Virus record (IMG/VR): IMGVR_UViG_3300031952_000161
Coordinates: 1 to 22,660 of that record
DNA from: a virus
Length of the DNA stretch: 22,660 nucleotides
Direction: 5' to 3' (one strand)
Of this stretch, positions 12,103-18,404 are shown piece by piece (position 1 is the first letter of the stretch; each line of letters begins with the position of its first letter). A model generated the notes under the pieces. That model saw only the letters and a program-made list of their open reading frames with translations, did not search any database and had not been told where the DNA came from. The position numbers and the translations under genes are program-made.

Positions 12103-12110
12103 TTTTTTAA

Positions 12111-12147
12111 AATTAAAAACCTACTTACCTATTGCTAAGTAAGTAGG
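12111..12147 (-). terminator. Intrinsic terminator or attenuator upstream of polA
   Basis: A perfect 9-bp stem (12120-12128 with 12139-12147; CCTACTTAC/GTAAGTAGG) with a 10-nt loop is followed on the minus strand by TTTTTAATTTT. It follows the 12163-12510 gene and precedes the polymerase ATG at 12102. Because no room remains for a separate promoter before polA, it may be a leaky terminator that lowers polymerase expression, or a promoter may lie further upstream. Confidence 0.7.
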
Positions 12148-12162
12148 CTTTATGAATAAATA

Positions 12163-12510
12163 TTAATCTTTAACTTCTGTATTTAAATTCTTTAATTCAT
12201 CATTTAAGAAAGCTATTGTCTCTAAATGTTGCTTTAATACAGCCTCAGCCATAGTAATTTTATTCTTAGCTAATAATAATGCCTCTACATAAAGATCTCT
12301 ATTCGTAATAGGCTTACCTTCATTAATCCTTTTAGATACTAATTCATCTTTAGCATCTTCTATATTTTGCTTGAAATCTTCACTATCTCCTTCTAAAGAA
12401 GATATTTGAGATTTTAATCCTGCATTAGCCTGTCTAAATGCTTTCTCTGCATCGGCAGCAACATTGTCACCTTTAATTTTAGCGGTGTATTCTTTGATAA
12501 AACTGTTCAT
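12163..12510 (-). CDS. Small coiled-coil protein, unknown function
   Basis: 115 residues from the ATG at 12510 (MNSFIKEYTAKIKGD...), chosen because it has the AATAAAAATTATG context seen at other starts. An in-frame ATG at 12525, 6 nt after the upstream stop, would add five residues. The protein is highly helical: residues about 20-60 and 75-112 carry heptad-like Leu/Ile spacing around a less helical middle (SKRINEGKPITNRDLY). It has no catalytic motif. It directly precedes the terminator hairpin, so it is the last gene of the upstream transcription segment. Confidence 0.7.
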   Translation of the reverse strand: MNSFIKEYTAKIKGDNVAADAEKAFRQANAGLKSQISSLEGDSEDFKQNIEDAKDELVSKRINEGKPITNRDLYVEALLLAKNKITMAEAVLKQHLETIAFLNDELKNLNTEVKD

Positions 12511-12531
12511 AATTTTTATTGTCATTGGTTT

Positions 12532-14103
12532 TTAATTTGTTTCTAATAATTTTGTTTTAATCTTTTTAATCTTTTTTAAATTAGTATTAAATACTGTTGG
12601 TTCATCTTCTAAACTTAGCAAAGATACTTTTTGTTTATTAAAACAAGAAAGGTCTAAAGGATAATTAGTATCTAAATGATTTATTTCTATACAATTGAGA
12701 TCTTCAATTATACCCTTTAATTTAATATTATCAAGACTAGAGTATTCCCATCCTGTTAGTTTTCCTCCAGTATAAAGTGCAGCTCCATCATTATGTTTTA
12801 TAGTTTCTGTTATAGGTTTATTATTAGTAAAATTAAATTTAGAACCCCATGCTGTTAATAAGTTTTTACCAGAAATAAGTAAAGTTTGACCAAAACCAAT
12901 GATGGATTCATCAGTTGGTTTTTTCATACCTACCCATTCACATTCAGCTTTATAATAATTAGTAGTAAATAAATCTCTAGTTGAATAACGAGTACTATTA
13001 TTTACTCTAACCCTAATAAGAGTTTGATCTATTATTTTATCTATTTGATAATACTCACCAACTTTACAAACTTCTATACAATCTTGAATACATCTAACCC
13101 ATCCTCCAACTTGATATTCTTGTGATTTATTATTTTGTATATCAAAAGCTTCTTTAGTTGATGGTTTAAATTCTTCAGTCCAATTTCTCCAATAATGTTG
13201 TTGTAGTCCCCCAATAGTTCTATTAATTAAATCATCCCATTTATAAATTTTACCTATTTCAAAGCTATTTTTAGCATCACTTTTAAACCAATTGTTACTA
13301 TTAGTATATTCTACATATTCTGGATTTGATAGTTCTTCTTTTGAAATTACTGTATATCCTTTTTTATTACACCATTCATCAAAAGAATATATTTTATAAT
13401 TTTTTGTTTTATAAAAAAAAGTAGAAGCATGCTGATTAATATTTAAATTAATACAAGAGTTATGAATATCAGAAGACCATTTTCCAGTTGTCCAGGTATA
13501 ATTTAATTTATCAGTCACAAAATCCCATTGTTCTTGAGTCATACAATGTACTACTTCATAGTCATACTTTTTAGTAGCTAATGTAGTAACATCATAAGGT
13601 TTACCTAATTTATTATACTCAGCTATTTCCTCAGAAGTTGCATATCTCCATTTACCATATTCTCCTTGACCTAAAAAATCTACAGCAGCCCAGCCTGAAG
13701 TACTACTTTCAGCATTTTTTTCAGGTGACAAGTACACCGAATCATACTTTTGTTTAAATATATAATTTCTTGGAAAACAACTATCTTTTTCAGGAGTATT
13801 TAAACATACAATATAATCACCTTTTAAAAATTTATCTTTATTTTTCATAGTTTCTGTAATTTTATCTACATGACCTTCAGGAAGATATTTTTGTATTTCT
13901 GATAAATCTGTTAATAGTGTACCTGAATATCCATTAATTCTAAAATTATTCCAGCCCTCTTCTCCTACTTGTTTTTCATATGTTCCTTTTGGAATAGATA
14001 TATTTTCTTCATGTACCCATTTATCACCAATAAAACATTTAAACTTAGCATACCAGTTATATGCTGTTTTTAATCTATACCATTTACCTACTTCATATTC
14101 CAT
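12532..14103 (-). CDS. Repeat-module beta-rich protein, unknown function
   Basis: 523 residues, rich in Trp, Tyr, Asn and Cys, unlike the Lys/Glu-rich neighbours. A recurring opening motif of the type aromatic-x-x-G-x-aromatic/Ile-x occurs at residues 3-10 (YEVGKWYR), 92-99 (FLKGDYIV), 281-288 (FEIGKIYK) and 330-337 (YQVGGWVR). Each is followed by a beta-rich stretch; the second unit closes with GKWRYATSEEIAEY (about 150-163). This suggests several divergent SH3-like or similar small beta domains in tandem. No signal peptide, membrane segment or catalytic motif is seen. Start ATG has the TAAAATT context. It sits between a small conserved-looking gene and a coiled-coil gene inside the replication cassette, an odd place for a large binding-type protein. 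It might be a host-takeover or anti-defence factor, but there is no direct evidence. Confidence 0.75.
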   Translation of the reverse strand: MEYEVGKWYRLKTAYNWYAKFKCFIGDKWVHEENISIPKGTYEKQVGEEGWNNFRINGYSGTLLTDLSEIQKYLPEGHVDKITETMKNKDKFLKGDYIVCLNTPEKDSCFPRNYIFKQKYDSVYLSPEKNAESSTSGWAAVDFLGQGEYGKWRYATSEEIAEYNKLGKPYDVTTLATKKYDYEVVHCMTQEQWDFVTDKLNYTWTTGKWSSDIHNSCINLNINQHASTFFYKTKNYKIYSFDEWCNKKGYTVISKEELSNPEYVEYTNSNNWFKSDAKNSFEIGKIYKWDDLINRTIGGLQQHYWRNWTEEFKPSTKEAFDIQNNKSQEYQVGGWVRCIQDCIEVCKVGEYYQIDKIIDQTLIRVRVNNSTRYSTRDLFTTNYYKAECEWVGMKKPTDESIIGFGQTLLISGKNLLTAWGSKFNFTNNKPITETIKHNDGAALYTGGKLTGWEYSSLDNIKLKGIIEDLNCIEINHLDTNYPLDLSCFNKQKVSLLSLEDEPTVFNTNLKKIKKIKTKLLETN

Positions 14104-15737: not shown

Positions 15738-16389
15738 TAATTTTATTATTTAAGTTGTTATTAAGTTTTATCTTAGTTATAACAAACTCAAATTTCTTTT
15801 TCTTTTTATCATCAACTTCTACATATTCTGTTCCTCCAGAAAATCTTACATATCTAATATCATCATCTTTCCATTTTTTATGTTCTGTTAAAGTATCATT
15901 AAACCATTTAGTCCAGGGCCATTTATTATCACAGTCCCAAAAATGATCTTCTGGCATTGTATCAAATATAACAAACTTAACTGATAAATATACTCCTTTA
16001 GTTAATTTAGAAGATAATTCAGGTAATTCTTTAGCATATCCATAAAGATATTCATGTACTTTAGTAGCTATTGATTTTCTTAACATAGGATGTAAAGTAG
16101 CACTATATAAATCATTACCATTTACCTTCCAATATTTAGGTTTTCCAACAGACCTATTATTTCTTATAACTTCTTTTTTCGTCTTTTTATTAAAAATTTT
16201 ATTATTTTTAATAACATACAGTTTTTTATTTAAATACTTTAAAGGAATTTTCTTATCCTTGTCAGTATTAAAATACTTAGCCCTTCTAGCTTTAGCAGTT
16301 TCTACATACTCTATAGGGTTTTTAATGGTCAATACTATTTCTTCTAATTTGTTATAGTATTCAACCGGTACTCTCTTTGTCACAATCAT
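15730..16389 (-). CDS. RusA-like Holliday junction resolvase (putative)
   Basis: 219 residues. The RusA-type acidic signature lies in the C-terminal half: D152-C-D154-N155-K156 (WDCDNKW), D165 (WFNDTL), then D175-D176-D177 (KDDDIRYV) and a final beta strand. RusA enzymes cut four-way DNA junctions, here presumably replication or recombination intermediates before packaging. It is longer than E. coli RusA (about 120 residues), with about 80 extra basic N-terminal residues. The start overlaps the primase gene by 29 nt. Identification rests on motif spacing and context, so it is moderate. Confidence 0.6.
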   Translation of the reverse strand: MIVTKRVPVEYYNKLEEIVLTIKNPIEYVETAKARRAKYFNTDKDKKIPLKYLNKKLYVIKNNKIFNKKTKKEVIRNNRSVGKPKYWKVNGNDLYSATLHPMLRKSIATKVHEYLYGYAKELPELSSKLTKGVYLSVKFVIFDTMPEDHFWDCDNKWPWTKWFNDTLTEHKKWKDDDIRYVRFSGGTEYVEVDDKKKKKFEFVITKIKLNNNLNNKIND

Positions 16390-17344
16390 TTATTGCATTA
16401 TTTAAAAATTCTAAAGTTTTTTCTTTTTTATATTTTAATATAAAATCAGAAATATCTTTAACTTTGTAAATATTATCTATTATTATACCTTTTAGATTAT
16501 ATTTTTCTTCATATTCTATCTTTCTTTTAATTCCAGCTTCGTCATTATCAAAAAAAGTAAAAGTTTTATTAGCTTTACTTTTAATCTTTTTAATTTCTTT
16601 TTCTTTAAAAGTTACACTTTCACTTGCTGCACAGACAGCATTGATGTTTAATGATTTTAATACCATTACATCTTTATAACTTTTAGTTATTATATTAAAC
16701 TCTGAATCTTCCAATTGAGCTAATCCTTTAATACAATAACTTCTTATATTACCTATATGTCTATAACTTTTTAAGGCTGTAGGCCTGTACCATTCTTTAT
16801 TATTTAAATAATTAATGTTGTATTCGTATATAGAACAATTTTTTACATTTAACCATTTTACATACCCGTTATAAAATAATGTTTGAACAGGTTTTACAGA
16901 ATATAACTCTAAAATATCTTCAGTAATATTTATACTACTCCAATACTTTAAATCTTGTAAATCCCAATCTCTATACTCAACAGTAAATAAGTCAGAAGCA
17001 TACATCTCCTGACTATTTATTGTCGTCTTATAGTCATTATTGATTATTAATGGTTTATAATTACCTATACTCAAAATATCATTACATTTACTTATAGCAG
17101 TTGTTTTATCTATATTATAATAAAGAGAAACAAATTTTATTACATTTCCTTGTTCTCCAGTACCAAAATCCTTAAAAAGAACAGTGTTCTGATATTTTTT
17201 ACAAGAAAATGAAGGGTGACTGTCTTTTCTCAATGGTGATTTTATTTTAATTCCAAAATTAAAATCTCCTATAATACTTTTAAAAACTATCTCTGAGTGA
17301 AATAATATATCTTTAATATCATATTTTTCAACACTAATTGGCAT
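16361..17344 (-). CDS. DnaG-like primase (TOPRIM)
   Basis: 327 residues. The N-terminal region has SPLRKDSHPSF (36-46) and LFKDFGTGEQGNVI (56-69), typical of the DnaG-type primase N-terminal domain, but without the CHC2 zinc-binding cysteines. The TOPRIM domain is at about 215-290, with DxD as D266/D268 in FTFFDNDEAGI. The usual TOPRIM glutamate of the EGxxD motif is replaced (ITKSYKD, K221 at the Glu position, D225 kept). No helicase domain is fused; the SF4 helicase is a separate gene at 21113-22105. The ATG follows a 253-bp structured non-coding region and has the AATTATG context. It should prime phage DNA synthesis. Confidence 0.85.
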   Translation of the reverse strand: MPISVEKYDIKDILFHSEIVFKSIIGDFNFGIKIKSPLRKDSHPSFSCKKYQNTVLFKDFGTGEQGNVIKFVSLYYNIDKTTAISKCNDILSIGNYKPLIINNDYKTTINSQEMYASDLFTVEYRDWDLQDLKYWSSINITEDILELYSVKPVQTLFYNGYVKWLNVKNCSIYEYNINYLNNKEWYRPTALKSYRHIGNIRSYCIKGLAQLEDSEFNIITKSYKDVMVLKSLNINAVCAASESVTFKEKEIKKIKSKANKTFTFFDNDEAGIKRKIEYEEKYNLKGIIIDNIYKVKDISDFILKYKKEKTLEFLNNAINDCDKESTG

Positions 17345-17383
17345 AATTATAATTTGATTAAAAAATTTAAATAAAAATCTTTG

Positions 17384-17553
17384 TAGAATACTTCTAAGAT
17401 ATTCCTAAACTACACAAAACCTCAGCCCTCCCAGAGGATGCTGGTGGTTACATTTATCTTCATATAAAATAACGTTGCTTAGAACAACTGTAATTACTTA
17501 GGACTGTATTACTGGATTTGAACCATACCTATCAGCTACCTGCTTTTAATTAC
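17384..17553 (-). ncRNA. Candidate structured RNA between ssb-like and primase genes
   Basis: This is the only sizeable gene-free stretch (17345-17597). On the minus strand it holds a series of nested and tandem helices. P1 (17553-17547 with 17496-17490, 7 bp) encloses a 3-bp hairpin at 17542-17533 and an arm TAGG/CCTA (17531-17528 with 17502-17499). That arm is capped by TGG-TTCAAAT-CCA, a 7-nt loop identical to a tRNA T-loop. Then follow a hairpin at 17488-17474, a 12-bp interrupted G/C-rich hairpin at 17449-17418 followed by TTTTGTGT, and a hairpin at 17407-17384. In 17421-17450, 18 of 30 bases are G/C in an otherwise very AT-rich region. It may be a small RNA, a primase leader, a terminator or a replication-origin structure. 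It is not a complete tRNA. Confidence 0.5.
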
Positions 17554-17597
17554 TATCTTATATTAAAGTACAAAGACTTTTATTTAAATTATATTAA

Positions 17598-18404
17598 CTA
17601 AAATGGTAAATCATTAACAACAGTAGATACTGGTATATTAGGTTTATTAGTTAATTGTTCTTTATTAAAAATAGTTAAATTATAAGGAGAATAACCATAA
17701 AAATCTTTAATATAACCTTCTTTAATATCAGAATCCAGAGTTAATATTAATCTATCAAAGTTCTTAGACCAAGCTCTTTCAAAAGCTTTATTATAAACAA
17801 CCTGATAAAATTTTTCTCCATCAGCAGACTGTTTAACACCAAGAGCAACTCCAATATTTCTCTTATTATTAAAAGTATTTAATAAATTTTTAATTTCTGT
17901 AACATCACCATTCTCATATAAAGAAGCCATATTATCTAATCTACATTCTTTATCTTTCTTAATATCTAATAAAGTTTTCAAAAAGGAAATTAAGAATTCT
18001 TCACCAGAATATGCTAAATCCATAGTATTGATATCAAAATACTTAACTCCGGCAGTAATTGGATTACCACTATCATCTAAAGCAAACCATTTAAAATTAC
18101 CTTTAGCATCAACATATTGTACATTACCAGGTTTAGATGCTACTCCTTTGTTACCTATAAAAAAGGAAACATCTCCTTTTATAACATTTTTATCTTTTGT
18201 AGTAGCATTAAATAAAAATTTAATTAATCTACTATTTGTTTTTTCATTAAAATATACAGGATCAGTATCCTTATTCTTAACATTATATCCTAAATTTTCT
18301 AATTCTTCATTAGTAGGATTAACTGTTAATATATTTACTTTAGTCATTCCCGTATACAGGGTTCTACCTTCACCTACGGACTCATTAGTCGTTTCAAATG
18401 CCAT
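17598..18404 (-). CDS. Single-stranded DNA-binding protein (putative SSB/gp2.5-like)
   Basis: 268 residues. The C-terminus ends in VVNDLPF, the hydrophobic-acidic tail typical of bacterial and phage SSBs (DDDIPF-like) that recruits other replication proteins. Residues about 20-130 are beta-rich, compatible with an OB fold, and a helical region follows at about 130-175. It is longer than bacterial SSB (about 170). It lies directly after the Sak4-like ATPase and one small gene, a common pairing for phage annealing recombination and replication. It ends in TAG. A 12-nt direct repeat lies upstream. The function is inferred from the tail, size and neighbourhood rather than from a named family. Confidence 0.65.
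   Translation of the reverse strand: MAFETTNESVGEGRTLYTGMTKVNILTVNPTNEELENLGYNVKNKDTDPVYFNEKTNSRLIKFLFNATTKDKNVIKGDVSFFIGNKGVASKPGNVQYVDAKGNFKWFALDDSGNPITAGVKYFDINTMDLAYSGEEFLISFLKTLLDIKKDKECRLDNMASLYENGDVTEIKNLLNTFNNKRNIGVALGVKQSADGEKFYQVVYNKAFERAWSKNFDRLILTLDSDIKEGYIKDFYGYSPYNLTIFNKEQLTNKPNIPVSTVVNDLPF

Follow-up and report, generated by a model that had tools for sequence, protein, structure and literature searches.

A structured, exchangeable intergenic element between the SSB-like and primase genes of a crAss-like phage, and tRNA-like occupants of the corresponding slot in the Suoliviridae

The DNA analysed here, IMG/VR record IMGVR_UViG_3300031952_000161 (22,660 nucleotides, referred to as the window), belongs to a crAss-like phage, the nearest named relatives of its primase being Crassvirales proteins that are about 34% identical, and a primase tree places it outside the Suoliviridae clade, at the end of a long branch. 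All genes between 7967 and 22560 are carried on the minus strand and the operon that they form includes genes for DNA polymerase A, a 5'-3' exonuclease, a Sak4-like AAA protein and a DnaB-like helicase. No gap between these genes is longer than the 253 nt at 17345-17597, which also form the longest non-coding stretch in the window, as the preliminary description had claimed, and which lie, again as described, between an SSB-like and a primase gene (Table 1). No family model in Pfam or PHROG matches the product of the upstream gene, and it is named SSB-like solely because it shares a DLPF end with the Suoliviridae gene at the same locus. Since both neighbours are coded on the minus strand, this is the relevant strand for the element between them, and its location, sense to both genes, is that of the Suoliviridae slot considered below. 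Elsewhere in the operon, a segment of about 1.7 kb (12268-14002), comprising most of a 523-aa gene (12532-14103), is missing from the otherwise near-identical contig behind L006, and a 16-bp hairpin, AAGCCTACTTACTTAG...GTAAGTAGGTTTTT, at 12103-12162 fills the space in front of the DNA polymerase A gene.

Table 1. Features at the SSB-like/primase junction, in window coordinates
Feature	Position	Strand	Basis
DnaG-type primase, downstream gene	16361-17344	minus	PHROG 12622 and Toprim_2 matches; 34% identity to Crassvirales primases
SSB-like gene, upstream	17598-18404	minus	acidic DLPF C-terminus; alignment with Suoliviridae gene before primase
Exchangeable island (structured RNA element proper)	17356-17582	minus	blastn against L005-L007
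Closing helix, 5' arm	17564-17590	minus	MFE fold; inverted repeat I1, 33 nt, 82% complementary
Closing helix, 3' arm	17364-17386	minus	MFE fold; inverted repeat I1
T-loop-bearing arm, closed by GTAATTA/TAATTAC	17490-17553	minus	MFE and centroid folds
D-loop-like GG hairpin candidate, AGC-AGGTA-GCT, directly 5' of T-loop	17534-17544	minus	by eye
T-loop box GG-TTCAAAT-CC (GGTTCAAATCC), T-stem of 3 bp (TGG/CCA)	17514-17524	minus	MFE and centroid folds
Short hairpin GTTGTTCTAAGCAAC	17474-17488	minus	MFE and centroid folds
G/C-rich hairpin followed by TTTTGTGT	17412-17449	minus	MFE fold; no score in terminator scan

Folding of the 253 nt yielded -57.9 kcal/mol and a z-score of -3.6 for the minus strand, and a z-score of -4.0 for the plus strand, with none of 200 dinucleotide shuffles being as good in either case. 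An AU-rich closing helix of about 27 bp, which the preliminary description had overlooked, begins 8 nt past the SSB-like stop codon and finishes about 19 nt before the primase ATG. It encloses the arm bearing the T-loop, a short hairpin, the G/C-rich hairpin with its TTTTGTGT tail, and one further hairpin. The D-loop-like hairpin is a weak candidate and is absent from the MFE fold. The slot had also been described as far more G/C-rich than its surroundings, which is an overstatement given a GC content of 26.9% compared with 25.0% for the window and 30-34% reached in coding windows nearby, although a core of about 145 nt attains 36.6%. Thus the structured domain, the additional hairpins, the location and the T-loop box of the original observation stand, while the strong G/C enrichment does not.

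The T-loop box, reported earlier as a TTCAAAT loop of 7 nt on a GG/CC stem, is the sole match in the window to the T-arm pattern GGTTCRANYCC when both strands are searched, with 0.03 matches expected, and it conforms to the sense-strand box GTTCRANYC of the Suoliviridae slot units. Its stem consists of three Watson-Crick pairs without an abutting acceptor stem, and the box is located 170-180 nt before the primase ATG; the strict Suoliviridae arrangement of a 5-bp T-stem, a 7-bp acceptor stem and a discriminator lying 15-30 nt before the primase ATG is absent. ARAGORN found no tRNA genes in the window and the tRNA model RF00005 gave no match to the element at E<=10, and on these grounds, together with the short T-stem and the missing acceptor, a tRNA gene was rejected as its identity. 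Because the strict acceptor/T-arm arrangement is lacking, the element is kept apart from the tRNA-like units and is regarded as another occupant of the slot. Rfam searches, which had been suggested as a check, revealed no known RNA family in the window at gathering thresholds (tmRNA, Y RNA, introns, riboswitches and others), and for the element with relaxed filters they produced only a chance match to SNORD96 (E 2.8). When applied to the window, the element, 20 related loci and the L023 slot, they detected tRNA in some of the relatives and nothing else. A group I or group II intron was likewise rejected, being without Rfam support.

Close relatives were sought via the SSB-like protein, the primase and PolA, and each time the same two IMG/VR contigs, and no others, were retrieved. 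They are 98% identical to the window over 5.1 kb upstream and about 92% identical over 3.4 kb downstream and both lack a 227-nt island (Table 1), in place of which blastn shows 101 unrelated nt; in the comparison of the window with L005-L007 the flanks of the island match to the base on both sides. The window and L023/L024 provide a case of exchange between near-identical phages, with the primase DNA of L023 being 98.9% identical to that of the window and its slot sequence entirely different. The 101-nt replacement likewise folds into a long stem (z -3.0) and holds, by eye, a D-arm-like AGTTCAGT...GGTTAGAGCT. Two 20-mers diagnostic of the window's element had no match in IMG/VR, blastn of the element against phage records gave short chance-like matches and nothing more, and local BLAST against all the slots yielded little except the T-box and short A/T-rich matches.

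The gap preceding the primase gene was compared for about 118 loci, which were gathered through related primases in phage records, IMG/VR and genome contigs. It extends from 64 to more than 1200 nt in the Suoliviridae-like clade, where the slot typically ends with a T-arm followed by a 7-nt strand, a discriminator, which is mostly A, and CA or CT; roughly 15-30 AU-rich nt then lead to the primase ATG. T-arms, for which a 5-bp stem was required, occur 103 times in sense and once in antisense orientation within 43.6 kb of slots, as against seven in sense within 508 kb of flanking sequence. Of the 60 non-redundant primase-proximal T-arms, 33 have a matching acceptor strand, near-perfect over 7 bp, no more than 120 nt upstream, while dealing the 3' strands anew among the loci produced a mean of 2.8 and a maximum of 7, expectations which are somewhat inflated because related loci have acceptor strands in common. 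Most acceptor pairs show four to six pair types, and there are 28 distinct 3' strands, indicating that the stems vary yet remain paired.

ARAGORN classifies ten of the 60 primase-proximal units as tRNAs (Leu, Trp, Glu, Arg, Thr) and leaves 50 unrecognised; across the relatives, slot tRNAs for Leu, Gln, Trp, Glu, Arg, Thr and Cys were found. Among the 50 unrecognised units, 29 can form an acceptor helix of 7 bp or more, as against 6.4 after shuffling (maximum 13). The bodies of the units range from normal, through those with abnormal anticodon arms, to those carrying inserts of tens to hundreds of nt. At the other extreme, in about eight units the acceptor strand is separated from the T-arm by just 10-15 nt, as in the armless example from L028, TAGCCTG-ATAGGAAATAT-TGTAG-TTCGATT-CTACA-CAGGCTA-ACA. 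The excess of this armless class is moderate, with ten observed, two of which are real tRNAs, against a mean of 3.1 and a maximum of 9 in shuffles, and single cases may therefore have arisen by chance. In a survey of crAss-like phages (PMC7886860), tRNAs were detected with tRNAscan-SE at a bit-score cut-off of 35, and its authors consider that suppressor tRNAs of high divergence could be missed. Searches of open-access papers turned up no description of a tRNA-like or other non-coding element at the SSB-primase site of crAss-like phages.

Slots of 45-320 nt have a median fold z-score of -2.1, compared with -0.9 for matched coding stretches (p 3e-5), and the window slot, with -3.8 in this comparison, is among the most structured. 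For slots lacking a T-arm the median is -2.6, several of them being plain hairpins. In the tRNA-like units and in the window alike, the slot structures end at a short and similar distance before the primase ATG. Since slots without T-arms are structured too, and the window branches outside the Suoliviridae, what the lineages have in common is RNA structure at the SSB-primase junction, and the tRNA-like units represent one widespread version of it. The slot element is absent from some crAss-like lineages, the gap before primase being 20 nt in crAss001 and 11 nt in L027.

Exchange of occupants was also seen between other pairs of close relatives. L050 and L077, whose primases are 97.4% identical, are identical in the near flanks of the unit, within which the former carries a tRNA-Leu(UAA) and the latter an apparently armless acceptor/T-arm unit. 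L025 and L104 (98.9%) have a 5' module in common and differ in having a His-like and a Thr-like body, respectively, and L099 and L101 (96%) share the trailer and are almost wholly different upstream. Moreover, in eight Suoliviridae-like genomes, which were read in pieces, tRNA-like units also precede the DNA polymerase gene and other genes. The place about 20 nt in front of DNA polymerase is taken by a non-tRNA unit in W01 and W08, by tRNA-His in W03 and by tRNA-Val in W05; the unit keeps its position but not its isotype or body. Positions of tRNA-like units include 70816 in W01, 92388 in W08 and 7616 in W02, with real tRNAs at the same places in sister genomes.

Additional features were encountered in the loci examined. 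A conserved hairpin module, consisting of GGTCAGTGGTGGAGG, a variable stem and CAGCCCC, is repeated in L044, L056, L063, L071, L082, L101 and about 45 more loci, up to 1.5 kb upstream of the primase gene and often with GGTGCTGACAACC later; its stem shows apparent compensation (GGCTAAC/GTTAGCC, GGTTGAC/GTCAACC, TGCTGAC/GTCAGC), and in sampled loci the module had no match in Rfam. Plus-strand CAGCCC and CTGGTGG in the window were likened to this module, a comparison that was rejected because they lie on the opposite strand and in the opposite order. A second type of T-loop recurs in slots of different lineages (L016, L029, L040, L047, L061), with UGYRAGU on GG/CC stems, as in ATAGG-TGTGAGT-CCTAT. 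Some crAss-like contigs, several of them of about 98-101 kb (L103, L104, L107, L111, L117 and others), occur in MAGs labelled Bacilli, Sphaerochaeta, Nanoarchaeota and Mollicutes, probably as a result of binning errors, and the primase gene of NC_055896.1 (L012, 1420-2418) has an in-frame stop near the C-terminus under table 11.

The slot before the primase gene is conserved in position, unusually structured, occupied in the Suoliviridae by acceptor/T-arm units and swapped between near-identical phages. The explanation that we favour, with a probability of roughly 0.4, is that the element is a cis-acting structured intergenic RNA which would provide interchangeable mRNA punctuation between the SSB-like and primase genes, the slot retaining an RNA structure while the identity of the occupant, whether tRNA, tRNA-like acceptor/T-arm unit, plain hairpin or, in the window, a multi-branch RNA with a long stem and a single T-loop, would be free to change. 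The element would be transcribed as part of the SSB-primase operon. An acceptor stem plus a T-arm is the least that RNase P and tRNA 3' endonucleases require of a substrate, and for tRNA-like occupants these two activities would cut the polycistronic transcript; in the window, the long closing helix could serve as an RNase III-type double-strand site or as a block to exonucleases. The SSB message would thereby be parted from the primase message, or their ends protected or stabilised, presumably permitting unequal expression of the two proteins, and the primase message would be left with a short AU-rich leader after separation. As the window lies outside the Suoliviridae on a long branch, we extend the Suoliviridae pattern to it by inference from position and behaviour, without sequence homology. 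A more general and doubtful proposal is that Crassvirales use tRNAs, anticodon-less tRNA-likes and bare acceptor/T-arm hairpins as punctuation before primase and DNA polymerase genes, such that selection would maintain a minimal RNase P/RNase Z substrate, or its equivalent, rather than a decodable tRNA, with the window's element as a non-tRNA occupant. The preliminary description had offered a new phage small RNA, a tRNA mimic, a primase leader or the replication origin. Among these the primase leader fits best if it is taken to mean an RNA structure that lies between the messages for SSB and primase; the tRNA-like lead gained support from the tRNAs or tRNA-like acceptor/T-arm units that nearly always fill the slot in the Suoliviridae, and the element may possibly be a small RNA or tRNA mimic.

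In the latter case a trans-acting RNA would be released from the operon transcript and would act as a decoy for tRNA-targeting defence nucleases or a tRNA-binding protein, or as a Y-RNA-like scaffold, its rapid turnover reflecting an arms race. This would accommodate the rare T-loop on the sense strand, the exchange of the whole sequence between near-identical phages and the tRNA-like, mostly non-decoding occupants in relatives, but we consider it unlikely in view of the tight placement, 15-30 nt ahead of start codons and only in sense orientation, which a trans-acting RNA does not need, the equal degree of structure in slots without tRNA features and the absence of Rfam matches to known tRNA mimics. 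The gap could instead be a graveyard in which tRNA genes are gained and decay, the window holding a decayed fragment in a neutral spacer; real tRNAs do occur in the slot, the T-arm of the window is partial and the replacement in its sister has only a D-arm-like piece. However, acceptor and T stems are preferentially kept, perfectly paired where the rest has gone, and decay should neither spare them, nor hold a fixed distance to the ATG, nor leave the window slot among the most structured, and the process is therefore an improbable source of the element.

A transcription terminator or attenuator between SSB and primase is suggested by plain hairpins with T-rich tails in several crAss-like slots without tRNA features (L017, L114, L119), by the tailed G/C-rich hairpin in the window and by the T-run of the hairpin in its PolA leader, and yet it has a low probability, given that a scan of 17200-17800 for a G/C-rich hairpin directly followed by at least five T in eight found no intrinsic terminator, that the closing helix and the T-loop arm would be superfluous for a simple terminator and that the tRNA occupants of relatives are not terminators. 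The long inverted repeats at the ends, and the clean presence or absence at one site relative to L023, recall a MITE-like, small non-coding mobile insert unrelated to tRNA, which is nevertheless most improbable for an element that is single copy in the window, whose diagnostic 20-mers found no copy in IMG/VR and whose site in the sister is filled by a different structured element rather than empty. Hardly any weight is given to the replication origin, despite the strong fold and the replication genes around it: GC skew, the check proposed for an origin, simply follows gene strand, switching once at about 8 kb with no inflection at the slot, neither iterons nor a direct-repeat array were found, and near-identical phages carry an entirely different sequence there.

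Among the viruses of the human gut, crAss-like phages rank with the most abundant. If punctuation by exchangeable RNAs is the correct reading, swappable tRNA-like RNAs would cut their operons into separate messages, which would explain part of their puzzling tRNA content, the isotype changes between near-identical genomes and why some expected crAss-like tRNAs escape detection, and tRNA scanners would overlook most such units, as ARAGORN does at the primase. It would also constitute tRNA punctuation in a bacterial virus, with natural armless tRNA-like genes outside mitochondria. The slot units would then supply a set of naturally occurring minimal RNase P/RNase Z substrates that is directly testable.

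In mitochondria, tRNAs, some of them armless, lie between co-transcribed genes, and RNase P and RNase Z free the flanking mRNAs. The Suoliviridae slot resembles this arrangement in retaining exactly the acceptor/T-arm part while the isotype varies, and differs from it in that the phage case is known from sequence alone and at few replication-gene junctions, the phage occupants are mostly not decodable and the window's element is without an acceptor stem. Bacterial Y RNAs and YrlA are tRNA mimics with a terminal stem plus a tRNA-like domain carrying a T-loop, to which the terminal stem and T-loop domain of the window's element may be likened by analogy, whereas it had no Rfam match to them at E<=10 and no test made gave homology. 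The tRNA genes of crAss-like phages, suppressor tRNAs included (PMC7886860), are found in the same genomes and some slot occupants are ordinary tRNAs; the available part of that survey has no description of the SSB-primase slot. In contrast to such genes, 50 of the 60 primase-proximal units are unrecognised as tRNA and their isotype is unconserved. The known intergenic cleavage sites for RNase P and RNase III in polycistronic mRNAs are individual cases. The proposed endonucleolytic separation at a structured intergenic site would be similar in kind, and it differs in that a single slot persists here across a virus family while what occupies it is exchanged.
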